A stretch of DNA of 64,000 nucleotides from a virus: the IMG/VR virus record IMGVR_UViG_3300013114_000447, positions 62,001-126,000 of that record; one strand, written 5' to 3'. Shown piece after piece: positions 44,766-63,466 of this stretch. Both the position numbers and the translations under genes were made by a program. The notes under the pieces are model-generated. The model saw only the letters and a list, made by a program, of their open reading frames with translations, was not told where the DNA came from and searched no databases. Numbering within the stretch: position 1 is the stretch's first letter; every line of letters starts with the position of its first letter.

Positions 44766-45824
44766 ATGAAAGTAACCAAATCAAAACTAAAGCAGATTAT
44801 TAATGAAGAACTGGGACAAGAACTCCAAGAACTTTATATCCCTTTTATTGGCGGGAAACTTCCCGAGAAAGAATATGCAATCCGTAGGAAGCAGTTGGAC
44901 GCCATTGGCGATATGGCAAATGACCTAAGCGCGGAAGAGGAAGAACAATTCTTAAGGTACGCGAGCCGGTTGGTAGCACCCAAGGAGGAAGGGGAAGGCT
45001 TTGTCCTGCTGAGCGACAGGATAGAAGCTGGTCTTCTAGGACAATTGTTTCAACAACTGAGGCGCCTTCTGTATGACCGTCACCCTAAACATAAAGCACA
45101 GAGTCTTATGAACCGTTTTGATCAAAACGCAGATCGGTTGTCCAAAGAGTTGGGCGGACTAGCCCAAGAAATAGCCGATCAGAAAGCTGATGCTGCGGCA
45201 AGAGAAAAGGCCGCCCGGGAAGAAAGGTATGAGAGGGAACAACGAGAAGAAGAAGAAGAAAAAGCAAGAGCGCGAAATAGGAGAGACGCAGAAGAAGCCC
45301 GTTCGGCGCAGGAGTACCTGAGTATGTCCGATGCAGAACGTACTCGACTGCGCAAGCGGTCAGGATCGTCGTCCCACCGCGTTAACCCCGGCTTTGCAGG
45401 CTCAGGAAACATGGGCTATGGAGAATCACTCGATAGGAGAATCCCAATGAAAGTAACCAAAGCACAACTTCAAGAGATCATCCTTGAAGAGCTTACAATC
45501 GCTTTAGACGAGCTTGGCGCTGGCAAAGGCGCCGGCATGAGCCTGCGCGCTGCCCAACTCGGTGGAACCGGACACGGCAAGCGCGATGAAGACGAAGAAT
45601 ACGTCGATCCCGAAGTCGATCCTTATGAGAAAGCGCTGGAAGCTCCGTTGGCCGAAGAAGAGGATGACGAGTGGATTCAAGACGCAGAGAAAGATATTAA
45701 AAAGCGCGGCACCGAGGGTGTCTGCACTGGGGATAAATTTGGTGGTCCCACATGCAAGCCTGGAACGAAACGATACAACTTAGCAAAGACGTTCCGGAAG
45801 ATGGCGAAAGACCGCAAAAAATAA
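44766..45824 (+). CDS. Tagged coiled-coil protein; two tagged units in one frame
   Basis: 352 aa. Begins with MKVTKSKLKQIINEELG, the IIxEE tag. A strongly charged helix follows (about 135-195, rich in R, E and A, including EEEEEKARARNRR), then at residue 228 a second copy, MKVTKAQLQEIILEELT, preceded by its own AGGAGA. The C-terminal module (EGVCTGDKFGGPTCKPGTKR, then YNLAKTFRKMAKDRKK) resembles a module I recall from marine phage proteins. It could be a fusion of two tagged genes. Inferred to be a head-internal or assembly protein through its tag. Confidence 0.65.
   Translation: MKVTKSKLKQIINEELGQELQELYIPFIGGKLPEKEYAIRRKQLDAIGDMANDLSAEEEEQFLRYASRLVAPKEEGEGFVLLSDRIEAGLLGQLFQQLRRLLYDRHPKHKAQSLMNRFDQNADRLSKELGGLAQEIADQKADAAAREKAAREERYEREQREEEEEKARARNRRDAEEARSAQEYLSMSDAERTRLRKRSGSSSHRVNPGFAGSGNMGYGESLDRRIPMKVTKAQLQEIILEELTIALDELGAGKGAGMSLRAAQLGGTGHGKRDEDEEYVDPEVDPYEKALEAPLAEEEDDEWIQDAEKDIKKRGTEGVCTGDKFGGPTCKPGTKRYNLAKTFRKMAKDRKK
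45447..45824 (+). CDS. Possible internal-start product with second tag
   Basis: In frame with the 44766 gene. The ATG at 45447 lies 6 nt after GATAGGAGA and starts exactly at a complete second IIxEE tag, so a 125-aa product could be made alone. This is the same start context and tag as in stand-alone tagged genes at 51207 and 51553. Confidence 0.45.
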   Translation: MKVTKAQLQEIILEELTIALDELGAGKGAGMSLRAAQLGGTGHGKRDEDEEYVDPEVDPYEKALEAPLAEEEDDEWIQDAEKDIKKRGTEGVCTGDKFGGPTCKPGTKRYNLAKTFRKMAKDRKK

Positions 45825-45828
45825 AAGC

Positions 45829-45857
45829 TTGACTCTTGCTTGACAATGAGTTATACT
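45829..45857 (+). promoter_or_regulatory. Sigma70-like promoter of the recombination gene
   Basis: TTGACT at 45829-45834, a 17-nt spacer and TATACT at 45852-45857, in the only sizeable gap of the region. A second TTGACA overlaps (45840-45845) without a good -10 partner. The start site would be near 45864, followed by GGAGGG and the GTG start at 45883. Confidence 0.6.
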
Positions 45858-45882
45858 ATAAGAGTATCTATGCGGAGGGTAC

Positions 45883-48800
45883 GTGAAGTTTGCACATATA
45901 AGTGATACTCATATCAAAAATCTGAAGTATCATTATGAATATCGAGTCATTTTTGAGCAGTTGTATGAAACGCTGCGGGAACAAAAAGTCGATTACATTA
46001 TACACTGTGGGGATATAGCCCACACCAAGACCCAGATCTCACCAGAGTTTGTTGAGATGTGTTCTGATTTTTTTCGCAGTCTCGCTGAGATTGCACCAAC
46101 CTATATCATTCTAGGAAACCATGACGGCAACCTAAAGAACAGCAGTCGTCAAGACGCACTGACACCGATTGTCGACGCGCTCAATCTGCCGACACTGCAC
46201 TTGCTTAAAGATTCAGGCGAGACTCATTTGAACGACGATTTCTGTTTGAATGTCTTGTCTGTTTTTGATCGAGACAACTGGATGAAGCCCACCAATACTG
46301 ACAAGATCAATATTGCACTTTATCATGGCTCAATCTCTAATTGTAAAACTGATACCAATTGGACGATGAGTTTTGGTGAAGATGATATATCTATCTTTGA
46401 CGATTTTGATTTTTCTATGCTTGGTGATATTCACCGTCGCCAATTCCTAGATCACGATGGACGCGTTTGGTATGCTGGCTCAACTGTTCAGCAGAACCAT
46501 GGCGAGACCAACGACAAAGGTATTCTCATTTGGGATATCAAATCTAAAGACGAATGGGACATTGAGCCGATTGTGTTTAAAAACCCTAAGCCGTTCTTTA
46601 CAATCCCGCTCACACTCAAGGGGCGGATGCCTCGCAATCTCCAAGTACCCACTGGCGCACGCCTGCGATTGGTTAGTAACAATAACCTTCCGCTTAACAC
46701 GATGCGCCGAGCAATGGACATTGCGAAGCATCGCTTTAAGCCCGAGAGCATCTCGTTTCTCAACAGAGCAGCAGGCGAGCGCGGTAATGTAGAAGATCTA
46801 ACTGACGGTATTAAGACAGAAAACCTGCGAGACATTAAAGTCCAAGAAGAACTGATTGACGAGTTCCTTTCAGATTACCAGACCGATGCCACAACCCTAG
46901 AGCGCGTGTTTGAGCTTAACAGCAAGTACAACAAGATTATCGAGGACCGAGAAGAGATCTCTAGAAACGTAAACTGGAGAATCAAGTCGTTTAAATGGGA
47001 CAATCTGTTTAATTACGGAAAGGATAACTCCATCGACTTTGAAAACCTTAACGGCATCATTGGCGTTTTTGGAAAGAACTTCAGCGGCAAATCTAGCATC
47101 ATTGATGCGGCCCTGTATACATTGTTCAACACCACCTCAAAGAACGAGCGCAAAAACCTCAACGTTATTAATCAACATCAAGAATCTTGCGAAGGCGTTT
47201 TAGAGATCGAGATCGGACACAAAGTCTACAACATTAAGCGCACCTCTGAAAAATATACGAAACGCTTGAAAGGTGTTGAGACCTTAGAAGCCAAAACAGA
47301 TTTGAACTTCGAAGTCTATGACCCTGTCACAGACGAGACAACATCCTTAAACGGCACCACACGCAATCAGACGGACGCAAATATTCGAAAGCACTTCGGG
47401 TCCATGGATGATTTTATGGTGTCTTCTCTGGCAAGCCAGCACGGTGCATTGGGATTCATTGATGAGGGTTCGACACGTCGAAAGGAAATCATCGCCAAGT
47501 TCCTCGATTTGGAGCTGTTTGACCAAAAGTTTAAGATGGCCAAAGACGACTCTGTTGAGGCCAAGGCTCTCCTGCGCAAGTATGAGGATCGGGATTACAA
47601 CACTGAGGTGCAGGCATTAGAAACCAGCTTGGAAGACTTGACTGTACAAGCGGAAACTAATCGCACAACTTGCGAGGATTATCGTAAAGAACTTAAACTT
47701 CTGAACGAAGGAGCGAGACGCTTAGACGAGAAGATCAATTCTATTCCTGGCAAGCTTATTGACATCACAAAAGTCATGACAGAGCAAAAAGATAAGCAAG
47801 TGTTGTCGAAGTTGTTGGAGGAGAAGATAACAAGCCAAACAGCACTGGCACTTGTCAAGCAGCAGAAAGTGGCAATATCAGAGAGCTTATTAGAGCTTAT
47901 CGATCATGCCACCCTCACAGCCGACAAAGCAGAAATTGATACTTTAGATCATAGTATTATGAATCTTCGAGAAGAGATTGAAAAGATTGGCAAAAAGGAA
48001 AAGCTTTTGAAGAGTATCCCCTGCGGCGATTCTTATCCTTCGTGTCGATTTATCAAAGATGCCTATATTGACGTAGCTAACAAGCCAGGAATTGAAGCAG
48101 ACCTTCACGCGGCCGCTATGCGTTTAGAAACGTTGTCTCCTGACGACACAGCCGAAAAGCTTGAAGAGTATCGTTTAACGCAAGAACTGATTGTAGAACT
48201 AAAGGCGGAAGTTGCCGCGCTGCAATTAGAATGCGAACGTAATAAGAACACAAAGGCCACAACTGATCAAGAATTGATCACTCTCACCACCAAGGTCGCT
48301 GAATATAAGCAAAACAAAAAGGTTATTGATGGACTTGAAAAAGTCATCAAAGAACGACAAGGTTACCAAACTAAGATCGAGACTAAAAAAGAAAAGATTG
48401 AAATCTGTGATAACGAGACATTAGAGATTGTACGACAGGTGGGTTCCTATGAAGAGAAGATTGAATCTCTCAAGGCTCAAAGTAAGGAGTATCAAGACCT
48501 TCAGAATAGTTATGCGGCATACGATTTGCTTATGCAATGCATGCACCCTAACGGAATCGCTTACGATATTATCAAGAAAAAGATTCCAGTCATTAACCAG
48601 GAGATTGCAAAAGTTCTCGCCAACATTGTTGAGTTCGAAGTGTTTTTTGAGACCAGCGGAAACAAGCTTGACATCTTTATTAAGCATCCTAAGCACGACG
48701 AACGGCCCATTGAAATGGCGTCAGGTGCAGAAAAGACAATGGCCGCGATGGCAATTCGTTTGGCTCTTTTAAGTGTTTCTTCACTTCCAAAGTCGGACTT

Positions 48801-48990
48801 GTTTATCCTCGATGAGCCGGGCACCGCATTGGACGAAGAAAATATGGAGGGTTTTATTAGGATCTTGGAACTAATTAAGGTATATTTTAAGAACGTTCTC
48901 TTGATCTCGCATTTAGACTCTCTCAAAGATTGCGTCGACATGCAGATTGTAATAGAAAAGAAAAAAGGCTACGCAAAGGTAAACCAATAA
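45883..48990 (+). CDS. Fused Mre11-Rad50 (gp47-gp46/SbcD-SbcC) recombination nuclease
   Basis: 1035 aa, GTG start after GGAGGG. Residues 1-~340 are an Mre11/SbcD phosphoesterase (HISDTHIK with D8 and H10, CGDIAH, LGNHDGN, then MLGDIHRRQ). From about 366 a Rad50/SbcC ATPase begins: Walker A G397KNFSGKSS, long coiled coils, a hook-like C714-x6-C721 (CGDSYPSC), the ABC signature MASGAEKTMAAMA and Walker B FILDEPGTALD. In T4 and bacteria these are separate proteins forming one complex that resects DNA ends for recombination-dependent replication. Here they are one chain, with a helical linker near 320-365. It has its own sigma70-type promoter. Confidence 0.93.
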   Translation: MKFAHISDTHIKNLKYHYEYRVIFEQLYETLREQKVDYIIHCGDIAHTKTQISPEFVEMCSDFFRSLAEIAPTYIILGNHDGNLKNSSRQDALTPIVDALNLPTLHLLKDSGETHLNDDFCLNVLSVFDRDNWMKPTNTDKINIALYHGSISNCKTDTNWTMSFGEDDISIFDDFDFSMLGDIHRRQFLDHDGRVWYAGSTVQQNHGETNDKGILIWDIKSKDEWDIEPIVFKNPKPFFTIPLTLKGRMPRNLQVPTGARLRLVSNNNLPLNTMRRAMDIAKHRFKPESISFLNRAAGERGNVEDLTDGIKTENLRDIKVQEELIDEFLSDYQTDATTLERVFELNSKYNKIIEDREEISRNVNWRIKSFKWDNLFNYGKDNSIDFENLNGIIGVFGKNFSGKSSIIDAALYTLFNTTSKNERKNLNVINQHQESCEGVLEIEIGHKVYNIKRTSEKYTKRLKGVETLEAKTDLNFEVYDPVTDETTSLNGTTRNQTDANIRKHFGSMDDFMVSSLASQHGALGFIDEGSTRRKEIIAKFLDLELFDQKFKMAKDDSVEAKALLRKYEDRDYNTEVQALETSLEDLTVQAETNRTTCEDYRKELKLLNEGARRLDEKINSIPGKLIDITKVMTEQKDKQVLSKLLEEKITSQTALALVKQQKVAISESLLELIDHATLTADKAEIDTLDHSIMNLREEIEKIGKKEKLLKSIPCGDSYPSCRFIKDAYIDVANKPGIEADLHAAAMRLETLSPDDTAEKLEEYRLTQELIVELKAEVAALQLECERNKNTKATTDQELITLTTKVAEYKQNKKVIDGLEKVIKERQGYQTKIETKKEKIEICDNETLEIVRQVGSYEEKIESLKAQSKEYQDLQNSYAAYDLLMQCMHPNGIAYDIIKKKIPVINQEIAKVLANIVEFEVFFETSGNKLDIFIKHPKHDERPIEMASGAEKTMAAMAIRLALLSVSSLPKSDLFILDEPGTALDEENMEGFIRILELIKVYFKNVLLISHLDSLKDCVDMQIVIEKKKGYAKVNQ

Positions 48991-49898
48991 TGAAATTATT
49001 AATGGAAAATTGGCGAAAATTTGTCAATGAAACTGAAGAAAATCTTCACGAACTGGATAAGGGCGCGCTTTATGCGTTAAATAATCCAGGCACTCCCTTG
49101 GCAACTTACGTCGCGGTACTTAAGAAATATGCGAATGATCCAGAATTTGATAAGATCGCCGGCGCAGGCCAAGCCGATGGCCAGCCGGCCGATGAGGTGG
49201 CTAAGGTGCAGCCGGGCGCTATAGCTGCACAAGATCTCACAGCGACCCAAGCAGAAATTGGATTTGGAAATAGTCTGGCTGATCAGGTAGCTAATAAATA
49301 CGACGCCACTAAAACTGCTCTTGGACTAAACGGATCTCCAATTGTTATGGCTTCGAAGTCAGGTCCAGTTCCAATTTTAGTATACAATGGAAAATATATT
49401 TTAGACGGGCATCACCGGTGGTCACAAATTATGATGGTCAATCCAGGTGGTACTGTTAAGGTCGACAATTTAACTGGACCCGCTATCGACAATGAAGAAG
49501 AGGCTCTTAAGGTTATGCAATTCGCCATCGCTGCGACTGCTGACAAAGTAGTGACAAAGCCATTTGAGGGTGAAAATTTAATGCAAGCAAACGAGCAACA
49601 AGTAGCGAACTTTGTTCTTAAAAATGTTACTGATGAAGTCTTGCAGCTTTTAGTTCAGGCTGAGAAGATTGAAAAACCAGATAAACGCCTCGCTGCCCAA
49701 TATATTGCTGGTAATCTGCCGGTCATTAAGAAGTCTGCCGGCCGGTTCTCTCGCGAGAAAAGTATGCCTCAAGCCGGCGACTCTGGCGTTTCACAGGATG
49801 CGGTTAATCAAGCGCTTGGCACAGGCAAGGTTAACTTTGATAGCCCCAAGCCGGCCGACGCATATGGGAACCGCCCAGAGAAAAAAGCCGCAGAATAA
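48990..49898 (+). CDS. ParB/Srx-like-fold protein with W-x-x-F-x-N-E tag
   Basis: 302 aa from ATG 48990 (TAATG overlap with the previous stop; the upstream in-frame ATG at 48930 lies within the Rad50 gene). The start MKLLMENWRKFVNETEEN is the second tag type. The centre has PIVMASKSGPVPILVYNGK then ILDGHHRWSQIM (about 138-149), which is the DGHHR signature of the ParB/sulfiredoxin-like fold. The remainder is helical with a Gly/Pro-rich C-terminus. ParB-like phage proteins can bind DNA or act as nucleases; which applies here is unknown. It lies directly before the FtsZ-like gene. Confidence 0.65.
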   Translation: MKLLMENWRKFVNETEENLHELDKGALYALNNPGTPLATYVAVLKKYANDPEFDKIAGAGQADGQPADEVAKVQPGAIAAQDLTATQAEIGFGNSLADQVANKYDATKTALGLNGSPIVMASKSGPVPILVYNGKYILDGHHRWSQIMMVNPGGTVKVDNLTGPAIDNEEEALKVMQFAIAATADKVVTKPFEGENLMQANEQQVANFVLKNVTDEVLQLLVQAEKIEKPDKRLAAQYIAGNLPVIKKSAGRFSREKSMPQAGDSGVSQDAVNQALGTGKVNFDSPKPADAYGNRPEKKAAE

Positions 49899-49913
49899 TA
49901 AACGGAGATTATA

Positions 49914-51041: not shown

Positions 51042-51044
51042 TAA

Positions 51045-51206
51045 ATGAGTACACCACGAGATTTAGCGCGAGATACATGGGCAAGAACGAAGCAGCTTGT
51101 TTTGCTTAACGGCGCATTAGAAGATTATGTCCTGCTCGCCGTTACGAAAGTAACGTGTTTGGCTATCGGACTTGCCGCTGGCTGGCACATGTGGGGAGGA
51201 GTATAA
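51045..51206 (+). CDS. Small single-span membrane protein
   Basis: 53 aa: MSTPRDLARDTWARTKQLVL at the start, then a transmembrane helix (LLAVTKVTCLAIGLAAGWHM) near the C-terminus. It has AAGGAAA upstream and stops directly before the next ATG. First of a run of very small membrane proteins; function unknown. Confidence 0.65.
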   Translation: MSTPRDLARDTWARTKQLVLLNGALEDYVLLAVTKVTCLAIGLAAGWHMWGGV

Positions 51207-51551
51207 ATGAAAATCACCAAATCCCAATTGATGCAGATTATTAAAGAAGAAACATCTAGCTTAAACGAAATGCCGTATCGGCAAGGGGGTCGCCACGCCG
51301 GCTACGACGCCAATTGGCGCCGCACGTTTGGTGAGCCAGATCCCTCTCAAAAAGATACGGAAGCACAAGCCATTGCAGACATGGATGTGGGAATTGCGCG
51401 AGAGTTTGCGCAAGACGTTGTAGAATTTGTACGCCAGAATGTAGCTTCTGAGCAGGCACCAGCCCTGGCAGAAATGTCGATGGGGGACTTTTTGAGACTA
51501 GCTGCTGATTTAGCAGGCGATGAGCCGCTGGTAACACAAGTCGGAGAATAA
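51207..51551 (+). CDS. IIKEE-tagged small protein
   Basis: 114 aa. MKITKSQLMQIIKEETSSLN is a perfect example of the recurrent tag; GGGGAGGA lies upstream. The body has no recognised domain (GGRHAGYDANWRR, then helices FAQDVVEFVRQNV and MGDFLRLAADLAG). The first 45 bases are nearly repeated at the start of the next gene. Inferred to be a head-targeted accessory protein. Confidence 0.65.
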   Translation: MKITKSQLMQIIKEETSSLNEMPYRQGGRHAGYDANWRRTFGEPDPSQKDTEAQAIADMDVGIAREFAQDVVEFVRQNVASEQAPALAEMSMGDFLRLAADLAGDEPLVTQVGE

Positions 51552-51552
51552 G

Positions 51553-51789
51553 ATGAAAGTAACCAAGTCCCAATTGATGCAGATCATCAAAGAGGAGATT
51601 ACGAATATGAATCGTGGACTTCGAGAGTTTGCAGAATGGGTGATGGAAGTAAATGGACATATTGAAAGCTTGTCTGACGAATATGTATCGGCAGACGAAT
51701 TGGCCACCGACGTTAATCTGTATGATTTATGGTACCAGGGAATCCCGGCTGCCGCGGCTGCGCAAGATCTTATAAGCGGTGACTATTGA
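51553..51789 (+). CDS. IIKEE-tagged small protein
   Basis: 78 aa. MKVTKSQLMQIIKEEITNMN, the same tag, then a short helical body (LREFAEWVMEVNGHIESLSD). The DNA of the tag matches the previous gene, including an identical 17-base run. It follows the previous stop by one base and overlaps the next start by ATGA-type contact. Function unknown. Confidence 0.65.
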   Translation: MKVTKSQLMQIIKEEITNMNRGLREFAEWVMEVNGHIESLSDEYVSADELATDVNLYDLWYQGIPAAAAAQDLISGDY

Positions 51790-51923
51790 TGAAGCTTTGG
51801 AATAAACTAAATCACTGGCTCGACTGGCGCGGCATTAAGTGGACCGACATTATCGGCTCGGGTGTAGCGTTTGGAACAATCATCGGACTAGTTATAGTAT
51901 TAACCTGGGCAGGATTGCAATGA
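51789..51923 (+). CDS. Small Trp-rich membrane protein
   Basis: 44 aa. MKLWNKLNHWLDWRGIKWTD precedes a single transmembrane span (IIGSGVAFGTIIGLVIVLTW). It starts within the previous stop (TGATG) and overlaps the next start (ATGA). An N-terminal amphipathic helix plus a single span recalls small holin or antiholin-like proteins, but that is a guess. Confidence 0.6.
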   Translation: MKLWNKLNHWLDWRGIKWTDIIGSGVAFGTIIGLVIVLTWAGLQ

Positions 51924-52117
51924 GAGAAAGGCTTCGAAGGTTATGGAGTGTAGACGTGCTGGCTGTAGGGCTGGCATTACTTGCTTTGGCATACGCGTGC
52001 TGTGTGCACCATCGAGCCCAAGAAAGATTGAATGAAATTGAAGGCGTGGTTAACGAAGGAATTCATATTCCGACACAGCCAACTCCACCAGTGAGGTTCG
52101 AACCAGAATGTCAATAA
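51920..52117 (+). CDS. Small single-span membrane protein
   Basis: 65 aa from ATG 51920 (ATGA overlap; the upstream in-frame ATG at 51839 is inside the previous gene). A basic N-terminus (MRERLRRLW), one span (VDVLAVGLALLALAYACC) and a short soluble end rich in Pro. Part of the membrane-protein run. Confidence 0.6.
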   Translation: MRERLRRLWSVDVLAVGLALLALAYACCVHHRAQERLNEIEGVVNEGIHIPTQPTPPVRFEPECQ

Positions 52118-53112
52118 AGATTACAAAAAAGAAACTGATGGAAACTGTGGAGAAGGAAATGAAAAATGTCCTTCTAGAGACATATTTGCGCATCCACCTT
52201 TCACAAGTTTTAACAGAGCGAACTGAGGGAATGTCGACTGCTAAAATTGAGGCGCTGCTCTCATCTGTGATTGACAATTTGGAGGGTATCGATATGAGTA
52301 TCGATTACCTCACTTCAGCGATAACTGGTCATGATCCATATTCTTTGGGGATCGCACAGAAGGTGGCCGGCCGCGGCGGCGGACGCTTCTCTCCTGTTCC
52401 ATCCCCTCCGGAACAAGTCTCTGAAGCGGAAGAATTGTCGGAACTAAACCCTAATAAAACATTGGACCAACAAGAGCCCGAGGACTTTGAAGAGCCCGAG
52501 GAAGATCCTGACGCTTTAAGGTCCGATACAGTTTTAGGGGCCACCGGAAAATGGCCTGAAGAGCCTTCTGAGCCAGCGCAACAACGGCCTCCTCGTGAAT
52601 ATCGAAGTAAGGCCATTGAACTTTTGGCTTCGTTTCATGTAAATGTTGATCAGCAAGCTATAGATGCAGTGGCGTGGCAACTATACCACAATGCCATGGG
52701 CGCCCCCACGCAGGCGATGGAAGAACCCCCGAAGAAACGAAAAAGATTTAAGTTTTTTGAAAACGTAGGAAAACGCCCTAATGCTGAGCTACTAGCTTTA
52801 TTGCGAACAATGTTGAAAACTGCCGAAGATCCTTATGCAGATGAACAACGACTCCTATCTTTAGGAGGTGAATTAGAAGACATGCTCGGCCAATTGGCGC
52901 CGGCAGCCGAGTGGGCCCAAGAGCAGGGCTATGACCGGCCTACATATAGTGAAAACCTACAGCAGTATATTAGAGAAGAACTCGAAGCTTATTTGGAAGA
53001 AGAGGAAAAGAATAATCCTTGGGCCATATGCACTAGTTCTGTCGGCAGAGAAGATAAAGAAAAATATGAGAAATGCGTAAAAAGCATAAAAGCACAAAAT
53101 AGAGGAAAATAA
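52108..53112 (+). CDS. Tagged multi-motif protein with C-terminal WAICT module
   Basis: 334 aa. The N-terminus MSIKITKKKLMETVEKEMKN is a divergent tag. A Pro/Glu-rich low-complexity region (about 105-165) precedes a helical domain (KAIELLASFHVNVDQQAIDA, then RKRFKFFENVGKRPNAELLA). The C-terminus NPWAICTSSVGREDKEKYEK with a second Cys (KCVKSIK) is a module I recall at the end of many marine phage proteins. No enzymatic motif. The tag suggests targeting to the head or an assembly complex. Confidence 0.6.
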   Translation: MSIKITKKKLMETVEKEMKNVLLETYLRIHLSQVLTERTEGMSTAKIEALLSSVIDNLEGIDMSIDYLTSAITGHDPYSLGIAQKVAGRGGGRFSPVPSPPEQVSEAEELSELNPNKTLDQQEPEDFEEPEEDPDALRSDTVLGATGKWPEEPSEPAQQRPPREYRSKAIELLASFHVNVDQQAIDAVAWQLYHNAMGAPTQAMEEPPKKRKRFKFFENVGKRPNAELLALLRTMLKTAEDPYADEQRLLSLGGELEDMLGQLAPAAEWAQEQGYDRPTYSENLQQYIREELEAYLEEEEKNNPWAICTSSVGREDKEKYEKCVKSIKAQNRGK

Positions 53113-53113
53113 A

Positions 53114-54673: not shown

Positions 54674-55227
54674 TGGCAACAGTTTACGAAATCGTACAAG
54701 GCTTAGCACAAGCCGCCGCTAATGCATATGATGGCGCGTTAGGAGAAGACTACGAGCCTGATAAGCCCGGTATTCTTCGCCGAGAAGAGGGTAATGCCCT
54801 CATCGATCAACGAGTGATGGATGGCTTCAATGTGAAGTTTTATGGGAATATGATGTGCCTTAGCTATCAATCAGAAATCCAACTTAAAGAAGTTATCGCC
54901 GGCGGCTTTGAGGAAGATATCGATCAGCGCCTCACTGACATTTCAGGATGGCTTAAGAAAGAATACAAAAAGATTACTGGCGATTCGGTCAGCCTGACGG
55001 CCGAGGGTGAAGTAGATATCCGCGTGGAAAATTCTTCTCGGGTACGAACCTGGGTAGTGGCGAAGAAGCACTATCGTGTGGGTGGCTTGGACGAATCTAT
55101 GAATGATGATAATCGAGGTTCCACCAATCCTGTGGAAGCCAAATGGAAGACCTTTTTAGATCAAGGCGGCTGGAATGGTAAAGGCGGCACGCGCCCCGAT
55201 AACGATACGAGGAAGAAAGAATCATGA
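54673..55227 (+). CDS. Conserved phage protein with C-terminal W-x-x-F-L-D-Q tag
   Basis: 184 aa. MATVYEIVQGLAQAAANAYD, RREEGNALIDQRVMDGFNVK and LSYQSEIQLKEV are features of a family I recall near terminase in marine phages. Near the C-terminus PVEAKWKTFLDQGGWNG resembles the second short tag type. The mixed alpha/beta core has no enzymatic motif that I can see. It overlaps the next gene by 4 nt. Confidence 0.65.
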   Translation: MATVYEIVQGLAQAAANAYDGALGEDYEPDKPGILRREEGNALIDQRVMDGFNVKFYGNMMCLSYQSEIQLKEVIAGGFEEDIDQRLTDISGWLKKEYKKITGDSVSLTAEGEVDIRVENSSRVRTWVVAKKHYRVGGLDESMNDDNRGSTNPVEAKWKTFLDQGGWNGKGGTRPDNDTRKKES

Positions 55228-55568
55228 AAATTTCGATTGCACGACTCAAAGAGATTATTATGGAAGAAGTTGCGGGAGCAACCACTGAAGGTCACGATAA
55301 AGATTGGGGTATGGGCAAGGACGAAAAGTCTCGCACCCGACCCGGAGAAGAAGATTATACCGGGCACAAGGGAGACGAGTCTCATACGCACCCCGGAGAA
55401 CTGGATTATGAACATGATGGAGAAGATCTCGAAGGAAAAGCCAACCGCGTTCTCGCAGACTTACATGATGTAATGACGGCCGCAGGCCTTAATGTTGATC
55501 TAACTGCGGATGTAAGCGATGATGATATCGAAGCCGAAGAAGAAATAGAAATCGTAGATGATGAATGA
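55224..55568 (+). CDS. IIMEE-tagged acidic protein
   Basis: 114 aa. MKISIARLKEIIMEEVAG is the tag. Next come two short imperfect repeats (KSRTRPGEEDYTGHKGDE and ESHTHPGELDYEHDGED), then an acidic tail ending EAEEEIEIVDDE. No domain is known. It is translationally coupled to the terminase (ATGA overlap). It might be a small terminase or a head protein; there is no helix-turn-helix to support a small terminase. Confidence 0.6.
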   Translation: MKISIARLKEIIMEEVAGATTEGHDKDWGMGKDEKSRTRPGEEDYTGHKGDESHTHPGELDYEHDGEDLEGKANRVLADLHDVMTAAGLNVDLTADVSDDDIEAEEEIEIVDDE

Positions 55569-57151
55569 GTTTTCAATTAGACAAGAAACAGCAAGTCAAC
55601 GAGATTCTGAAATGCGGTAAAGACCCAGCTTACTTTCTCACAAACTATGCTCGTATCTCTCACCCAATGCATGGGTTGATTTTATTTGATACATATGATT
55701 TTCAAGATGCGCTCCTAAATGACTTTAATGATTATCGCTTTAATGTCATCCTTAAAGCACGTCAGCTTGGCATCTCTACAATCACAGCCGGCTATATCGT
55801 ATGGATGATGCTATTTCATCGCGATAAGGCCATTTTAGTTATGGCAACCAAGTTCGCCACCGCCGGCAACCTCGTCAAAAAGGTTAAAGGTATCATGCGC
55901 AATGTACCAGACTGGCTAAAGATTGCAACAATCAGCGTTGACAACCGCACATCTTTCGAGTTGTCCAATGGTTCCTCTATTAAAGCCGCGTCCACTTCGG
56001 GCGATGCCGGTCGTTCCGAAGCACTGTCTCTTTTGGTTCTCGACGAGGCCGCCCACATCGAAGGCTTAGAAGAATTATGGACTGGTCTATATCCGACGTT
56101 GTCCACAGGTGGGCGTTGTATTGCGTTGTCTACCCCAAATGGTGTGGGAAACTGGTTTCACAAGACCTGTACCGAAGCAGATTCTGGAGTAAACAATTTT
56201 AATTTAACGACGTTACCGTGGGATGTCCACCCAGATCGAGATGAACAATGGTACACTAAAGAAACAAGAAACATGTCCAAGCGCCAGATTGCACAAGAAT
56301 TACAATGTAATTTCAACACGTCTGGTGAAACAGTGATTGATCCCGAATGTATGGAATGGCTGCTATCGAATGTTAAAGAGCCCAAACATCGCACGGGATT
56401 TGACCGTAATTTTTGGATTTGGGAAGAATTTGATCCTACCTGTAATTATTTGATGGTGGTGGATGTATCTCGTGGCGATGGCGCCGATTTTTCTACATTT
56501 CATATTGTCAAATTAGAAACCTTAGAAGTCATCGGAGAATATCAAGGAAAACTAACTCCTGATTTATTTGCTAACATGCTTAATCAAGTCGGCCGAGAGT
56601 TTGGAAATGCGATGATGGTAGTAGAAAATAATAATATTGGCTATACAGTACTTGACAAACTTGTAGAATACGGTTATCCTAATATATATTATTCTATAAA
56701 GTCAACGCATGAATATATTGAGCAACATCAAGCTGAATATAAAACTAACACGATTGCCGGCTTCTCTACTACACAGAAGACCCGACCTTTAATAGTTGCA
56801 AAATTAGAAGAGTTTATAAGAAATAAACTAATTAAAGTGTATTCATCCCGCACGGTTAATGAAATGAAAACTTTTATTTGGAAAAATGGAAAGCCTCAAG
56901 CTATGAAGAGTTATAATGATGATTTGATTATGGCTTTAGCAATTGCATGTTGGGTGCGTGACACTGCTATTCAAACTAATGCACGTGATTTAAACTATCA
57001 GAAGGCGTTCGTAGATGCAATTATTACGACACGCACTACGATGAACACGACTATTTCGGGCCAACAGGGGTACAAACAAGAGAATGCCCTAGATAAAAAA
57101 ACGACAGAGGCGGCAAAACTTTATGAACAATATAAATGGATTATTAAGTGA
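55565..57151 (+). CDS. Terminase large subunit, gp17-like
   Basis: 528 aa. The packaging ATPase part has FNVILKARQLGISTITAGYI (Walker A-like, about 62-80) and LLVLDEAAHIE with D160/E161 (Walker B plus catalytic Glu), then LSTPNGVGNWF (motif III). The nuclease part has YLMVVDVSRGDGADFSTFHI, MVVENNNIGYTVLD and a late SYNDDLIMALAIA with further acidic residues. It drives DNA into the prohead and cuts concatemers. It lies just before portal, as in other myoviruses. Confidence 0.95.
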   Translation: MSFQLDKKQQVNEILKCGKDPAYFLTNYARISHPMHGLILFDTYDFQDALLNDFNDYRFNVILKARQLGISTITAGYIVWMMLFHRDKAILVMATKFATAGNLVKKVKGIMRNVPDWLKIATISVDNRTSFELSNGSSIKAASTSGDAGRSEALSLLVLDEAAHIEGLEELWTGLYPTLSTGGRCIALSTPNGVGNWFHKTCTEADSGVNNFNLTTLPWDVHPDRDEQWYTKETRNMSKRQIAQELQCNFNTSGETVIDPECMEWLLSNVKEPKHRTGFDRNFWIWEEFDPTCNYLMVVDVSRGDGADFSTFHIVKLETLEVIGEYQGKLTPDLFANMLNQVGREFGNAMMVVENNNIGYTVLDKLVEYGYPNIYYSIKSTHEYIEQHQAEYKTNTIAGFSTTQKTRPLIVAKLEEFIRNKLIKVYSSRTVNEMKTFIWKNGKPQAMKSYNDDLIMALAIACWVRDTAIQTNARDLNYQKAFVDAIITTRTTMNTTISGQQGYKQENALDKKTTEAAKLYEQYKWIIK

Positions 57152-57159
57152 GATTATAA

Positions 57160-59130
57160 ATGGCAATTCAAGATAAAAACCCAGCAAACTCTGAAACGAG
57201 CTTATTCAAAGCGTTAACGCGTCTCTTCTCGGGTCCCATTGTTAACTATCGTTCTCAATCGGGACGTCGCATTCGGCGTCAACATTTAGATAAATTTTCC
57301 TCTCGCTTTAAATCGGCATCGGGGCAACAGTTTAAAAAGACACTTTATAATCCTTTAGATGTTATTGCTACAAATGCGATTCAAAACCAACGACGTTCAG
57401 AGCGTTATGTAGATTTTGATCAGATGGAATATATGCCTGAAATCGCATCTACGATGGACATCTATGCAGATGAGATGACAACATATTCTGAACTGCGCCC
57501 GATGCTTAATGTCCGATGTCCTAATGAAGAAATTAGTGCGGTACTGGATGTCTTATTTGATAGCATCCTTAACTTAAAATACAATCTTTTTGGTTGGGCC
57601 CGCACGATGTGTAAATATGGTGATTTTTTCCTGTATGTTGATATCGATGACAAATATGGAGTGACATCTGTTCTACCGCTCCCGGCCCAAGAAGTTGAAA
57701 GACTAGAAGGTAAAGATGCCACCAACCCGAATTATGTGCAGTTTCAGTGGAACTCTGCTGGGATGACCTTTGAAAACTGGCAAGTTGCCCATTTCCGCAT
57801 CTTAGGAAATGATAAGTACATTCCGTATGGAACATCAATTTTGGAGCCAGCACGACGCATTTGGCGCCAGCTAGTGTTGATGGAAGATGCTATGATGGCA
57901 TATCGTGTTATCCGTTCTTCTGAGCGCCGAGTGTTTAAGATTGATGTCGGTTCTATTCCTCCCAATGAAGTCGAACAGTATATGGAAAAAATTGTGACCA
58001 ACCTTAAGCGTCATCAAGTTATTGATCCTGAAAACGGACGTGTGGATTTGCGATACAACCCAATGTCTATCGAAGAAGATTATTTCATCCCAGTTCGCGC
58101 TGGCTCGGTCACAGAGATCAAGAACCTCGCCGGCGGCACCAACACTACCGATATTGATGATATCAAGTATTTGCGTGATAAGCTTTTTTCCGCACTCAAG
58201 ATACCTCAATCTTATCTAACGATGGGAGAAGGTGCCGAAGAAGACAAGACTACTCTTGCGCAGAAAGACATTCGTTTTGCAAGAACCATTCAGAGACTCC
58301 AAAGAGTTATTATCGCAGAGCTTACAAAGATTGGTATCATCCATCTGTACACATTAGGCTTCAGAGGCGACGACTTATTAAGCTTCAGCTTAACTCTCAA
58401 TAACCCGTCCAAGATTGCAGAACTTCAAGAAATTGAGACCTGGAAGCAGAAGTTCGACATTGCCGCTGCAGCCACAGAAGGTTATTTCTCACGGCGCTGG
58501 GTGTCCGAACATATCTTTGGTATGAATCATGAAGACTTTGGTCGCAATCAACGCGAAATGTATTATGATCGTAAGCACGACGCCGCTCTTCAGGCAGTCG
58601 CTGAAGCTGCTGCAGCCGAAGGCGCCGGCGGCGGAATGGGAGGCGATCTGGGGGGAGACCTTGGAGGCGATCTCGGAGGCGATCTCGGAGGAGATCTTGG
58701 TGGTGATCTTGGCGGAGGCGAGGAAATGCCCGCAGGTGAAGCCGGCGGTGATGAGGGAGGTGGCGATGATTCAGCGCTCCTAGCCGTCCCACCCGGCTCT
58801 CGTAACGAGCCTCGTCTGACCCCTGGAGCAAAGGGAAAAGTATATTATCCTAAGAAGGTTGATGGCCGACCAGCAGGAGCCCGGACGCGCTCTATGGGCG
58901 CGAAGTACAATCGAGAAAAAGCTAGCTCGGCTATTCGGAATGTTGTCCCAGGCGCTGAGATCGGTTCCCTCGCAAAGATGGGCAGCTTGGGAAATGGTAT
59001 TTATGAAGGACAAGCACCTATTTATAACGCAAGTGAGCTTTCTGAAGAAGAAAAGCTTTTTCACGTAAGCGATTCGATACGGGCGCTCCTTAAAGGATTA
59101 GAAGGATTGGAGAATAATAATGAAGGGTAG
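57160..59130 (+). CDS. Portal protein, gp20-like
   Basis: 656 aa, longer than T4 gp20. FDQMEYMPEIASTMDIYADE, YGTSILEPARRIWRQLVLME and YRVIRSSERRVFKIDVG are portal hallmarks; a further signature is SVTEIKNLAGGTNTTDIDDI. The stem and wing end near residue 480. It is followed by a Gly/Asp repeat (494-517) and a basic C-terminal region (PRLTPGAKGKVYYPKKVDG), an extension beyond the T4 protein. It forms the dodecameric vertex through which DNA passes. Confidence 0.93.
   Translation: MAIQDKNPANSETSLFKALTRLFSGPIVNYRSQSGRRIRRQHLDKFSSRFKSASGQQFKKTLYNPLDVIATNAIQNQRRSERYVDFDQMEYMPEIASTMDIYADEMTTYSELRPMLNVRCPNEEISAVLDVLFDSILNLKYNLFGWARTMCKYGDFFLYVDIDDKYGVTSVLPLPAQEVERLEGKDATNPNYVQFQWNSAGMTFENWQVAHFRILGNDKYIPYGTSILEPARRIWRQLVLMEDAMMAYRVIRSSERRVFKIDVGSIPPNEVEQYMEKIVTNLKRHQVIDPENGRVDLRYNPMSIEEDYFIPVRAGSVTEIKNLAGGTNTTDIDDIKYLRDKLFSALKIPQSYLTMGEGAEEDKTTLAQKDIRFARTIQRLQRVIIAELTKIGIIHLYTLGFRGDDLLSFSLTLNNPSKIAELQEIETWKQKFDIAAAATEGYFSRRWVSEHIFGMNHEDFGRNQREMYYDRKHDAALQAVAEAAAAEGAGGGMGGDLGGDLGGDLGGDLGGDLGGDLGGGEEMPAGEAGGDEGGGDDSALLAVPPGSRNEPRLTPGAKGKVYYPKKVDGRPAGARTRSMGAKYNREKASSAIRNVVPGAEIGSLAKMGSLGNGIYEGQAPIYNASELSEEEKLFHVSDSIRALLKGLEGLENNNEG
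58639..58710 (+). repeat. 12-bp minisatellite encoding (GGDL)6 in portal
   Basis: Six tandem 12-nt units (GGAGGCGATCTC type) in frame, encoding Gly-Gly-Asp-Leu six times (portal residues 494-517), then Gly-Gly-Gly-Glu. Units differ mainly at third codon positions, so selection on the peptide seems to outlast copying. Probably a flexible linker whose length can change. Confidence 0.85.
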
Positions 59131-59953: not shown

Positions 59954-60476
59954 AATTGGACAGGCGGCAGACGACGCAGTAGTGCGCCTTGAATTAGATG
60001 TGCGTAAGAGTATGAATGGAGATCTGATGATTTTTGATCACGGCGATATCGATATCGTACTTTCTACACGCACCAACAAGATCACTACCTTCCCCAAAGA
60101 AACCTTGAATGATTTAGTTTACGGAGCCCAAAATCGCTTGTTTGCCGAATTACGAAAGAAAGGCCTTGTCGTAGCAGATTCTATTCAAGCCGGAGGCTTT
60201 TATGGATCGGTTGAAGCACTAATGGAAGAAGCATCGTCAGAAAGCTTAAGCACTCCGAAGCTGGCTCTCATTAATATTTCTAACTTTATTGAAGAAGAGC
60301 GCCCCTACTTTGAAACAACAGAAGCAATTATTGGGATGGCTGACGACGAGCTTATCCATCCGGATAAACAAGACTCTACTGAACTTGGAGAAGTTCCCCA
60401 GCACAGTGACCAGGGCTCTATTCGTCCAGGCTTTATTCGCGATCCATACTCGTTGAGCTACCTATATACAATTTAA
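59937..60476 (+). CDS. Conserved head-cluster protein
   Basis: 179 aa with a beta-rich N-terminal half (MAITVRIGQAADDAVVRLEL, IDIVLSTRTNKIT) and an acidic Ser-rich C-terminal half. No named family. Tight linkage to portal and protease suggests a head assembly or neck role. Confidence 0.55.
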   Translation: MAITVRIGQAADDAVVRLELDVRKSMNGDLMIFDHGDIDIVLSTRTNKITTFPKETLNDLVYGAQNRLFAELRKKGLVVADSIQAGGFYGSVEALMEEASSESLSTPKLALINISNFIEEERPYFETTEAIIGMADDELIHPDKQDSTELGEVPQHSDQGSIRPGFIRDPYSLSYLYTI

Positions 60477-61025
60477 ATGAAACTCTTATTAGAACATTGG
60501 AATCGGTATCTCCAAGAAGAGGAAGAGGCGCGCCCTCTCTATGGCGACGAAAAAGAAGATGCCCCTGACTCCGAAGAGTCGACCGAAGAATTTCAAAAAT
60601 ATGTAGAAGCAGAAAGGAAAAAAACTATGGCGGCATGCGCCGACGTTAGAGAATTTGAGCCCGAGCAACGCTCCAGCCCAGAATTTGCAACCGCTTTAGA
60701 GAAGTGTAAAAAAGCTAATGAAGAACTAGAAAACAATATTCGAGAAAAATCTCCTTTTAATATTGGTGATAATCCCGACAATGCTCCCGCAGACCCTACA
60801 CCCGAAGAGCCTCAACAAAACAAGGGGCGAGACGTACAAAACGTAATGCGGTCAAATCAAGTTAAATTAACCAACGTTGAGAAAGAAGTTGGTTCGATAG
60901 AACAGGATTTGGAAACTATTATACAGAGAGTTCAAGCCTTATTAGGTCGCGTCCGACAGGAACTTACAGAAAGCGATATTCGAGAGATCATCAAAGAAGA
61001 ATACAAGCTTTATCAGGAGCAGTAG
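60477..61025 (+). CDS. Doubly tagged coiled-coil protein, candidate head core/scaffold-associated
   Basis: 182 aa. It has the W-x-x-Y-L-Q-E tag at the start (MKLLLEHWNRYLQEEEE) and the IIKEE tag at the end (LTESDIREIIKEEYKLY). The middle is charged, helical and coiled-coil (VEKEVGSIEQDLETIIQRVQ). The presence of both tag types in one protein links them functionally. It is adjacent to the prohead protease, consistent with an internal core protein; inference. Confidence 0.6.
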   Translation: MKLLLEHWNRYLQEEEEARPLYGDEKEDAPDSEESTEEFQKYVEAERKKTMAACADVREFEPEQRSSPEFATALEKCKKANEELENNIREKSPFNIGDNPDNAPADPTPEEPQQNKGRDVQNVMRSNQVKLTNVEKEVGSIEQDLETIIQRVQALLGRVRQELTESDIREIIKEEYKLYQEQ

Positions 61026-61330
61026 TGGAATTATTATACTTTATATTGGCATCTTATGGTCTTACCCAGATCTTAGTCTACGGAAAAGTCTTTGATGCTC
61101 TTCGTCCTACGAGAGGATGGCTTGGACAACTGTTCAGGTGCCCCATGTGCATTGGTTTTCATGTAGGGTGGATTTTAATGCTACTTTCTCCTTACACAGA
61201 ACTATTTAATTTTGATGTAACACCGGTAAATTATCTTATTTTAGGGTGTCTTTCTTCGGGGACATCTTATATTCTTAATATGATTATCGGAGATGAAGGA
61301 ATAAAACATGAACACAAACGCATGGAATAA
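61025..61330 (+). CDS. DUF1360-like membrane protein
   Basis: 101 aa, GTG start overlapping the previous stop. Three hydrophobic segments (LLYFILASYGLTQILVYG, GFHVGWILMLLSPY, VNYLILGCLSSGTSYILNM) and the motif LFRCPMCIGFHVG, the CPxCxGF signature of DUF1360. Function unknown. A membrane protein between head genes is unusual but common in these genomes. Confidence 0.65.
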   Translation: MELLYFILASYGLTQILVYGKVFDALRPTRGWLGQLFRCPMCIGFHVGWILMLLSPYTELFNFDVTPVNYLILGCLSSGTSYILNMIIGDEGIKHEHKRME

Positions 61331-61378
61331 TAAGTGGATGCTGCAGCCGGTCAGACGGTGCTGCAAAGGTTCTTAGCT

Positions 61379-61987
61379 ATGGGAAAGAAATTACTAAGAG
61401 AATATTACGCGCTTTGCGAAGGCGGCGTATGCCAAGATCTGTTAACGGAAGATGAGAAGCGCTTCGTTGCTAGCGGAGGAATGATGCTTTCGGGCAAACT
61501 CCAAGAAGCAGATGTGCAAAACGGCAACGGTCGTATTTACCCTTACCGTGTATTAATGCGAGAAATTGAAACTTACAAAAAACTCGTAAAAGAAAATCGT
61601 GCTCTCGGAGAGCTTGATCATCCAGATGATTCTGTCATCAATTTAAAGAATGCATCGCATATGGTGACTGATGTATGGATGGAAAATAAAAATGTGATGG
61701 GCAAAGTAAAAGTACTGGACACCCCATCGGGCAATATCTTGCGCGGCCTTGTAAATAGCGGCGCACAGCTTGGTATCTCTTCACGAGGAATGGGATCGGT
61801 GAGTGAGGCTCAAGGACAAACAATCGTCGAAGACGATTTCCAACTTATCTGTTTTGATTTTGTATCGGAACCCTCAACACCGGGAGCATATATGATGAAA
61901 GAGGCCAAAGACTTAAGCACTCCCAATGTCTTTACCAAAGCTGATCGTATCAATCGCTTATTGAACGAGGTATTGACGGATGAGTGA
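61379..61987 (+). CDS. Prohead core protease, gp21-like (S77-type)
   Basis: 202 aa from ATG 61379, chosen because AAAGG lies 9 nt upstream; an in-frame GTG at 61334 would add 15 residues with a weak site. LREYYALCEGGVCQDLLTE opens the fold, NGNGRIYPYRVLMREIE and ALGELDHPDD supply the catalytic H81, and AQLGISSRGMGSV supplies the Ser (S134 or S135). T4 gp21 cuts scaffold, capsid and internal proteins after (L/I)-x-E. That specificity fits the short tags carried by many neighbours, which makes this protease central to the reading of the window. Confidence 0.9.
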   Translation: MGKKLLREYYALCEGGVCQDLLTEDEKRFVASGGMMLSGKLQEADVQNGNGRIYPYRVLMREIETYKKLVKENRALGELDHPDDSVINLKNASHMVTDVWMENKNVMGKVKVLDTPSGNILRGLVNSGAQLGISSRGMGSVSEAQGQTIVEDDFQLICFDFVSEPSTPGAYMMKEAKDLSTPNVFTKADRINRLLNEVLTDE

Positions 61988-63050
61988 GCAATGGTCTAGT
62001 TATAGTGACCAGCAACAACGCGTTGCAACCTGGAGAACCTTTTTAAACGAAGGTTCTTTTCTGCAACGCTTGCGAAAAAAAAGCGCTCCCGGCCTGGAAG
62101 ACATGTCGGATGCCGAACTTCGTGGAGTATTTGCGACCGACCCGGATCCAGCAAACCAGCGTCAAGCAGCATACCTCTATATTAGACGTGCAAGCAACAC
62201 TGAAGAGCAACAAAGCCGCACAGAAGAATTAATGGACATTGCCAAGTCTAAAGATCCTACACCCACATCGCGTACTGGGACGACTGCCTTGGGTGAACCG
62301 GTCCCCCCCATCCCAGATGAGCCCTCACGACTTAGCACACGCATGCCCACCACTACTCCGGCACCAGTCGAAGACGAAGAGATGGTCGTTTGGGCAAAAA
62401 AAAGCGCACCTCCACTAAAAAAGGCTCTTGAAAGTGGGGGTTCCAAAGATGTAGCAGAGGCGCGCACTTGGATCGCACGCCGGACGGAGGAAGAAAAAAA
62501 CGCTCTGATAAACGCTCTGGCAGATATCGGACACACTTTTGTAGAAGACGATTCCGCAGATGAGAGCCCTGGTTCAGAAGAGACAGATATACCGGAACCT
62601 CTTCTTAATAGCGACGACCACACTTTAACTGTGATTCATTTTCTTGGATTGGATGACGCACCTTTGGATTCTATTCATTACCCAACAGACGAAGCCTGGA
62701 TGAATGCATCGGAGAGGCAGAAGCGAATCTGGTATCGTTATTACGCGGATGTTATACAGGATCGCGGCCAGGATTCGGACGGTGAAGATCCTTTATATAG
62801 ATCATTTCACAGCTTTTTCTTGAAGCCCGAGACGGATCTCTTTCTCCCAGAAGCGTTTCGCCAGTGGCTCGCTTGGGAAATTGAGAATCCTGAAAAAACA
62901 CCTGAAGTAAAAGCTTGGTGCGGCGAAAAAGAATGCACCCCGGCCGACATTGAGAGCAAACGCGAGTCACTTAAAGAGCTTTATATATTGGAAGAATCTC
63001 AAATGAGACGGTGGCACCAATTAGCAGGAATTAACCCGAGAGTATTATGA
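61980..63050 (+). CDS. Tagged head-cluster protein, position of scaffold
   Basis: 356 aa. Near the N-terminus RVATWRTFLNEGSFLQRLRK holds the second tag type with an L-N-E | G possible cut. The rest is acidic and helical with Pro/Thr-rich linkers; RTEEEKNALINALADIGHTF is a clear helix. The C-terminus ends KRESLKELYILEESQMRRWH. The gene lies just downstream of the protease, where T4 has the gp22 scaffold, but the composition is not convincing for a scaffold. It overlaps the next gene by 4 nt. Confidence 0.55.
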   Translation: MSEQWSSYSDQQQRVATWRTFLNEGSFLQRLRKKSAPGLEDMSDAELRGVFATDPDPANQRQAAYLYIRRASNTEEQQSRTEELMDIAKSKDPTPTSRTGTTALGEPVPPIPDEPSRLSTRMPTTTPAPVEDEEMVVWAKKSAPPLKKALESGGSKDVAEARTWIARRTEEEKNALINALADIGHTFVEDDSADESPGSEETDIPEPLLNSDDHTLTVIHFLGLDDAPLDSIHYPTDEAWMNASERQKRIWYRYYADVIQDRGQDSDGEDPLYRSFHSFFLKPETDLFLPEAFRQWLAWEIENPEKTPEVKAWCGEKECTPADIESKRESLKELYILEESQMRRWHQLAGINPRVL

Positions 63051-63466
63051 AAAAATCAGACCTTAAACAATTAATCAAGCCACTTGTCAAAGAGTGTATT
63101 CATGAAGTCCTCCTTGAAGAAGGGCTTTTATCCAATGTGGTTTCCGAAGTGGCGAAAGGGCTCCAGACGACCCCGCTTGTGGAAGTGCAGCAGTCTTCGA
63201 ATCAGGGACCAACACCATCAGTCGGCATTCAGACGACCGAACAAGACGTGGCGTCACGGGCTCAGTTAAAAGAATATAGAAAAAAGATGATGGAAGTTGT
63301 AGGAAAAGATGCGTATCAGGGAGTGGACTTATTTGAGAATACAGCCCCACTCTCAAATCACATTCCAGAACAAGGAAGCGCAGACTTAGGAGATCCCAGT
63401 GACGCTGGAGTGGACATTAGCTCTTTAGTAGGAAATTCCTCTAAAATTTGGCAGGCATTAAAGTAG
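63047..63466 (+). CDS. Tagged small head-cluster protein
   Basis: 139 aa. MKKSDLKQLIKPLVKECIHE, then LLEEGLLSNVVSEVAKGL, is a tag-like amphipathic N-terminus that I recall in many marine phages. The body has a short helix (AQLKEYRKKMMEVVGKDAY) and a C-terminal DAGVDISSLVGNSSKIWQAL. Possibly an internal or decoration protein; function unknown. Confidence 0.6.
   Translation: MKKSDLKQLIKPLVKECIHEVLLEEGLLSNVVSEVAKGLQTTPLVEVQQSSNQGPTPSVGIQTTEQDVASRAQLKEYRKKMMEVVGKDAYQGVDLFENTAPLSNHIPEQGSADLGDPSDAGVDISSLVGNSSKIWQALK

Follow-up and report, generated by a model that had tools for sequence, protein, structure and literature searches.

Among described phage systems, the closest is the capsid-targeting sequence (CTS) of phage T4, an N-terminal peptide (MKTYQEFIxE|A) that opens the internal proteins IPI-IPIII and those of the T-even IP cassettes and is cut by gp21. 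Mutation has mapped residues 4 and 7 of the T4 CTS to targeting and residues 8 and 10 to processing (PMC9026906), and the internal proteins of the T-even phages form a highly diverse set in which the CTS alone is conserved (PMC3012670). The T4-type internal proteins of RB32, for instance, begin MKTYQEFITE, MKTYQEFISE and MKTFKEFINE. Other phages also mark proteins of the head. In P1, the first 30 residues of DarB are an N-terminal capsid signal that suffices to carry a foreign protein inside (PMC9024508). In phiKZ/SPN3US, gp245-type (gp21-related) proteases remove head propeptides by cutting behind a short motif whose last residue is E (PMC10052503).

The 64,000-nucleotide stretch of viral DNA analysed here (the window; all its features named below lie on the plus strand) encodes a gp21-type prohead protease (Peptidase_S77; 61334..61987), as a previous sequence-only reading had stated. 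The protein matches PF03420 at E = 3e-31 (105 bits against the family model, cut-off 27), and the GEL-x-HP and SSR blocks are conserved in its alignment with RB32 gp21. The window also holds a T4-like large terminase subunit (55565..57151; 46% identical to that of Flavobacterium phage immuto) and a portal protein (57160..59130; assigned from gene order, compared with immuto gp20). Two short peptides recur at the N-termini of proteins in this genome, T1 (strict motif MKITKxxLxxIIxEE) and T2 (MKLLxENWRxFLNE). We consider it likely that both are propeptides that target the capsid in the manner of the T4 CTS; they would load cargo and then be cut off. Their best reading is as new CTS families whose predicted cargo is much larger.

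T1 opens four proteins of the window, all of which had been cited before and are good copies by translation: 44766..45824 (352 aa, start MKVTKSKLKQIINEE; tag 44766-44831, sites INE-14 and LQE-22), 51207..51551 (114 aa, MKITKSQLMQIIKEE; tag 51207-51272, second site LNE-21), 51553..51789 (78 aa, MKVTKSQLMQIIKEE) and the acidic 55224..55568 (114 aa, MKISIARLKEIIMEE), which overlaps the start of the terminase gene. The tag at 52108..53112 (334 aa, MSIKITKKKLMETVEKE) is loose, as had been said; this protein consists of two modules joined, SIDYLTSAITG and NPWAICTSSVGREDKEKYEKC, each of which occurs alone behind T1 in other phages. The repeat reported inside the 44766 protein is indeed a strict copy (45447..45512, residue 228, MKVTKAQLQEIILEE). 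An AGGAG of its own closely precedes the ATG, at about 45435-45439, so that it may be a second start; the copy is probably such a nested start or a fused second tagged gene. What had been overlooked is T2, so that T1 is real without being the sole tag. T2 is at least as frequent as T1 in the window's genome and opens the proteins at 48990..49898 (MKLLMENWRKFVNE, tag 48990-49031) and 60477..61025 (MKLLLEHWNRYLQE, tag 60477-60518), the latter between portal and protease. The C-terminal tag formerly assigned to the 60477 protein is present only as a loose T1-like match (SDIREIIKEEYKLY, about 60963-61022). C-terminal use of the tag in general was not supported: in ~3.6 Mb of fetched loci the strict T1 motif stands 289 times at an N-terminus, 23 times internally (often, in fact, at an N-terminal start other than ATG) and once at a C-terminus, in a spurious overlapping frame. 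Nor did the gene at 63047..63466 hold up as a tagged one; it is a conserved head-region gene adjoining the protease, with 81 homologous frames.

The recurrence of T1 is not due to chance. More than 120 viral contigs match its DNA pattern and none matches a scrambled one; in 2000 shuffled versions of the genome's proteins neither T1 nor T2 appeared at an N-terminus, against two T1 and five T2 in the unshuffled genome with the same gene caller, which misses some starts. A tblastn search of 50,697 named phage genomes with the bare tags returned no convincing copy, the literature searched made no relevant mention of the T1 or T2 letters, and an association of the tags with a late promoter (TATAAATA) was looked for and none was found. 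Like the T4 CTS, T1 and T2 are N-terminal peptides of about 10-14 residues on otherwise unrelated proteins. The bodies in the window are mutually dissimilar, as had been claimed (best pairwise BLASTP E = 0.26). Across the loci, clustering by body gives 228 groups for 292 T1 proteins and 110 for 227 T2 proteins, with a mean column identity of 5-6% in the aligned tagged proteins. Such a pattern might also come from a mobile 5' gene cassette, spread by recombination at a shared start or as an A-rich, translation-boosting start, with no role for the peptide. Indeed, the first codons are A-rich, several T2 tags of different phages share long identical DNA, and the neighbours 51207 and 51553 agree at 36 of the first 42 bases. 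Nonetheless, the T1 tag DNA is distinct in 284 of 292 cases, and synonymous sites vary freely while residues are fixed far from the start codon. The tags are also nearly absent from prokaryotes, with a single T2 match in 84,980 genomes, and neither the shifted yet retained (L/I)xE nor the exchange of two unlike tags on the same bodies (both described below) fits a cassette, which we regard as very improbable.

The evidence for capsid targeting includes the spacing Phi-x-x-Phi-Phi-x-E, which T1 and T2 share with residues 4, 7, 8 and 10 of the T4 CTS, and the (L/I)-x-E in which both tags end. The most conserved columns include L8, I11, I12 and E14 in T1 and W8, F/Y11, L12 and E14 in T2. As in T4, an S77 protease and a gp23-type capsid protein are encoded in the same genome. 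The letters themselves are not MKTYQEF-like: T2 is partly alike (WRKFLNE vs YQEFITE) and, in sequence, nearer than T1 to T4, but has a longer head (MKLLxEN) ahead of W-x-x-F/Y-L-x-E, whereas T1 has only the spacing in common and frequently a second site. Both differ further from the T4 CTS in their far higher copy number (up to 18 T1 per genome) and in cargo with enzyme domains. The P1 DarB signal resembles the proposed role of T1 and T2 as an N-terminal head-entry signal, but it is a system of one protein in another phage lineage. The phiKZ/SPN3US propeptides, unlike T1 and T2, are mostly 111-254 residues long and individual in sequence, with no short recurrent tag.

The fixed place of I-x-E in T1 that had been described is confirmed by copies in loci retrieved by means other than T1, in which position 14 was unconstrained and is E in 64 of 64. 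In T2, [LIVM]xE ends at residue 14 in 267 of 300 prefixes; of the 33 that depart from this, 26 contain it in a shifted position, compared with 8 of 33 downstream windows of equal size. All 48 major capsid proteins whose propeptide could be aligned contain [LIVM]xE inside it. Even with T1 and T2 removed, the same core is enriched at N-termini of protease loci (16.6% vs 3.5%, p = 3e-8; the immuto genes were called for this comparison without requiring a Shine-Dalgarno sequence). For T1, a second (L/I)xE peak lies at residues 21-22 (40% vs 1.1% background). Since this second site often follows ~8 residues further on, the cut in T1 may fall after residue ~22 rather than 14. The residue after the T1 site at 14 is usually E, as against A/S after capsid-protein sites, which counts against a CTS. 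Together with an amphipathic, helix-like repeat that runs past residue 14 and a weak resemblance of T1 to the N-terminal helix of the 63047 protein (MKKSDLKQLIKPLVKECIHEVLLEEG; HHalign probability 74%), it would suit a core-docking or oligomerisation helix that holds proteins in the prohead or to one another, is never cut and includes the conserved E. T1 as a mimic of the 63047 helix was itself rejected on that weak profile support. Against an uncut helix stand T2, whose conservation halts directly after E14 and which usually keeps (L/I)-x-E even where the register is displaced by one to a few residues, and the same type of site in the capsid propeptide; we judge such a helix unlikely.

The protease accompanies the tags. 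Each of the 15 tagged contigs that reach 140 kb has a gp21-type protease gene, and tagged contigs without it resemble fragments missing the head region. Tags occur in 18 of 78 protease loci and in one of 120 neutral loci, the single contig concerned being also protease-positive. The tag had been expected not to be equally common in phages that lack the protease, and neither T1 nor T2 was found in 20 protease-negative control contigs, although this comparison is confounded with lineage and many protease-positive phages lack the strict tags (11 of 13 contigs picked irrespective of tags). Co-occurrence over whole contigs of at least 140 kb is borderline (p = 0.05) and likewise lineage-confounded. 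This confounding would leave room for a tag that routes proteins elsewhere (membrane, RNA polymerase or a phage compartment), with the S77 protease incidental to the lineage. Against such a destination speak the spacing, identical to that of an experimentally mapped head-targeting signal, the position of the window's tagged proteins among head genes and the enrichment of tag-like cores in protease loci; we give it very little credence.

Among the cargo domains are kinase-like, GNAT, NUDIX, HAD and zeta-like ones. Proteins that are small and acidic or basic are mostly behind T1 and enzyme-like proteins (HAD-like, PGDYG and ParB-like among the T2 bodies) mostly behind T2. At the sequence level the two tags are interchangeable: among GNAT (E ~1e-20), kinase-like (E ~4e-15) and ParB-like (E ~2e-7) bodies, a homologue that starts with T1 in one phage starts with T2 in a different one. 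The largest mixed cluster (30 proteins) was rejected as a clean swap; it rests on shared lysine-rich modules. The 48990 protein has a weak ParB-like match and a DGHHRW motif, and among its homologues the one in L222 starts with T2, the one in L263 with a T1-like tag and the one in Microcystis phage Mel-JY01 with yet another tag. Of three full-length tagged-cargo proteins searched against the 50,697 named phage genomes, only the 48990 protein had a relative there, the one in Mel-JY01. The AlphaFold model of 48990 is of low confidence (mean pLDDT 37), and a fold search with it gave no match with E <= 0.001. The basic Cys-pair module at the C-terminus of the 44766 protein (GVCTGDKFGGPTCKPGTKRYNLAKTFRKMAK) stands elsewhere directly behind T1 (L157) and behind a T1-like tag (L185).

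Bodies, site, spacing, protease and swapping together lend partial in silico support to the earlier CTS-like reading, with T1 as just one of at least two families. In the mechanism we propose, the N-terminal amphipathic segment, Phi-x-x-Phi-(L/I)-x-E, would dock cargo on the prohead core before shell closure. The gp21-type S77 protease would then cleave T2 after residue 14 at (L/I)-x-E, and T1 at residue 14 and/or ~22, the T1 tag often being a tandem repeat of the site. The freed cargo, modular and composed mostly of small acidic/basic proteins for T1 and of enzyme-like ones for T2, would remain with the DNA and then enter the host. More tentatively, and with some doubt, T1 and T2 might be two addresses of one prohead loading code, e.g. 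core layers or dosage classes, T1 serving small, abundant acidic or basic proteins and T2 serving enzymes, in virions that hold at least a dozen tagged enzymes and inhibitors, with an injected proteome readable from the tag alone. Host-takeover enzymes delivered by the virion are so far known from T4 Alt and from a few internal proteins. If capsid targeting is correct, they would become a large, exchangeable arsenal of T4-related phages. A short N-terminal rule, Phi-x-x-Phi-(L/I)-x-E, in its T1 or T2 form, would predict as virion-carried hundreds of 'hypothetical proteins' that widespread uncultured phages encode, many of them with a recognisable enzyme fold, and phage-based protein delivery would gain new loading tags.

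Candidate sites are also present in the cultured relative immuto, whose host is Flavobacterium sp. LMO8 (MKKSQLRQIIKE in immuto35A_190 and MKKVMGNLADLLLE in the 5'-nucleotidase immuto35A_183); the immuto capsid protein has a candidate cut site at QIVSE|A. In the window, DLLTE near the N-terminus of the protease, conserved in close relatives, is a candidate self-cleavage site. Finally, in the protein at 61980..63050 a T2-like site, WRTFLNE, runs up to residue 24, and the C-terminal MRRWHQLAGI of this protein resembles the C-terminus of the scaffold.

The idea put forward by the sequence-only reading, that a tag routes diverse cargo into the prohead and that a gp21-type protease then cuts after (L/I)-x-E, survives the tests run, with corrections, a second tag having been missed. 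The source record is a virus contig of 203 kb, and the window covers its bases 62001-126000. There, translations show the expected common start (T1, MKITKxxLxxIIxEE) on the proteins at 44766, 51207, 51553 and 55224; at 52108, said to be tagged more loosely, the motif is present but loose. The internal repeat proposed for the 44766 protein is a strict copy at residue 228, and the bodies behind the tags are indeed dissimilar (best E = 0.26). In 2000 shuffles of the first 60 residues of the proteins that the genome encodes, neither a T1 N-terminus nor one of the second tag (T2, MKLLxENWRxFLNE) arose. The back-translated T1 pattern matches at least 120 stretches in IMG/VR, versus none for a scrambled T1 of the same residues. 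Exactly at the second T1 copy of the 44766 gene, an in-frame ATG at 45447 has a good Shine-Dalgarno site, a possible nested start yielding a second tagged protein. Elsewhere in the window, a 100-residue protein at the opposite end (3558-3860, MKNQDLDTLINEALGNIRDDRKSAKEFLNEIA) has two tag-like sites, and the C-terminal part of the predicted portal (57160-59130) contains a repeat, GGDLGGDLGGDLGG.

A scan of the remaining genome revealed T2: six proteins at genome 12.9-21.5 kb carry it, as do those at 48990 and 60477 in the window, which makes at least eight. Divergent relatives lie at genome 12058 (MPMKYSWKGFLGE, on a NUDIX protein, E = 2e-17) and 189895 (MSFDKWREFLAE). T2 has at least 120 matches in viral contigs and a single one in 84,980 prokaryote genomes. 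Many genomes hold both tags, T1 reaches up to 18 copies per contig, and the tags of a genome share one direction, with a single exception in one of the genomes (G016); reversed, the tag pattern had no matches. Outside the window, T2-tagged genes form a run at genome 12058-22115, with NUDIX, PGDYG-domain and HAD-like proteins among their products; the HAD-like protein has a relative in Flavobacterium phage immuto, annotated as a 5'-nucleotidase, with another, LLE-ending N-terminus.

ALTERNATIVES: synonymous diversity speaks against a DNA-level cassette (of 292 T1 tags, 284 are distinct in DNA), although tags do duplicate locally (36 of 42 bases are identical between 51207 and 51553). A tag function outside the head is possible. 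Clustering of the bodies gave 228 clusters for the 292 distinct T1 proteins (median 109 aa) and 110 for 227 T2 proteins (median 201 aa), both upper bounds because short proteins may conceal some kinship. Pfam families among 105 T2 or T2-like proteins, mostly cluster representatives, were NUDIX, PGDYG, AAA_33/zeta-like, protein kinase, GNAT, HAD/NT5C, HD, DUF192 and nucleotidyltransferase; T1 representatives gave GNAT, pentapeptide repeats, DUF6321 and few others. Neither list holds polymerase, helicase, terminase or tail families. Homologous bodies appear behind different tags: GNAT proteins carry T1 in one locus (L031) and T2 in four (L118, L170, L237, L430), kinase-like proteins T1 in L175 and T2 in L248, and the 48990 family T2 in the window and L222, a T1-like tag in L263 and a different tag in Microcystis phage Mel-JY01. 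The C-terminal modules of the 44766 and 52108 proteins recur in short T1-tagged proteins elsewhere, so that these two look like fused cargo.

The I-x-E had been described as standing at a fixed place, and T1 position 14 is E in 46/46 and 18/18 copies, counted with position 14 unconstrained in loci not fetched with T1. In T2, [LIVM]-x-E ends at 14 in 267 of 300 copies; in 26 of the remaining 33 it is shifted but still lies within residues 13-22 (e.g. WRKYLLQE, WRGYLLSE, WREFILTE), against 8/33 in downstream windows of equal width. Helix packing alone hardly explains why the site is kept when the register is lost. T2 conservation stops at E14 and that of T1 runs on; possibly the tag, chiefly T1, is a docking helix left uncut. 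A second (L/I)-x-E, with its E at position 21 or 22, is present in 40% of T1 copies (background 1.1% per position), and 15% contain a strict full-core repeat (L16xxV19L20xE22). The residues common after this second site (A, G, I, S) resemble the A/S following the site in the propeptide of the major capsid protein gp23, whose homologues with alignable propeptide have [LIVM]-x-E in 48/48.

In T4 IPIII, residues 4 and 7 serve mainly targeting, and 8 and 10 processing (PMC9026906); internal proteins of the T-even phage RB32 start MKTYQEFITE, MKTYQEFISE and MKTFKEFINE. When alignments are anchored on E, T2 W8, F/Y11, L12 and E14, and likewise T1 L8, I11, I12 and E14, fall on the four positions of the T4 capsid-targeting sequence, which are among the most conserved columns of both tags. 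Of the single arguments for function, we consider this shared Phi-x-x-Phi-(L/I)-x-E spacing the strongest. The idea would add two new tag families, T1 and T2, to the known mechanism of T4 capsid targeting, and the cargo predicted for them is much larger; neither motif was found reported in the open-access journal literature searched.

The protease (PF03420, Peptidase_S77) was found in 25/49 tagged contigs 60 kb or longer versus 3/23 neutral ones fetched with a dUTPase motif (p = 0.002), and at 140 kb or more in 15/15 (this genome counted) versus 3/5 (p = 0.05). The tag might have been equally common without a protease, but neither T1 nor T2 occurs in 20 protease-negative controls. Of the 24 tagged contigs without protease, gp23 is missing as well from 22 and lies only at a contig end in the other two, so that they look like fragments rather than exceptions. 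Around proteases, 18/78 loci hold a tag, in a sample skewed toward close relatives of the window's protease, versus 1/120 neutral loci, that one on a protease-positive contig. Since many protease-bearing phages lack strict T1 and T2, the protease looks necessary but not sufficient. After exclusion of T1 and T2, the generic core is still enriched, at 16.6% of N-termini in protease loci versus 3.5% in neutral loci (one protein per cluster, p = 3e-8), a figure that wants independent repetition because the consensus was picked after T1, T2 and T4 had been seen and relaxed T1/T2 variants are still included.

Further tag-like features were observed. A polyprotein-like product (L139:793-1896, minus strand) has a T2-type start and lysine-rich Cys modules with IIKEE-like segments between them, laid out as if for cutting into several basic peptides. 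An acidic protein at genome 176114-177019 (L008:14114-15019), starting MARKKLLTEGEVRQFMKLANLGPLSENYF, has two LxE sites within its first 26 residues and may represent a core protein or one more kind of tag. A third recurrent motif, R-M/W-x-x-LAGI, lies at the C-terminal end of the 61980 protein (about 62990-63047) and of a scaffold-like protein before gp23 (L006:10150-10174), and is perhaps another core-binding tag; in immuto it also stands at the start of small proteins (SEQFRRMQKLAGIITES).
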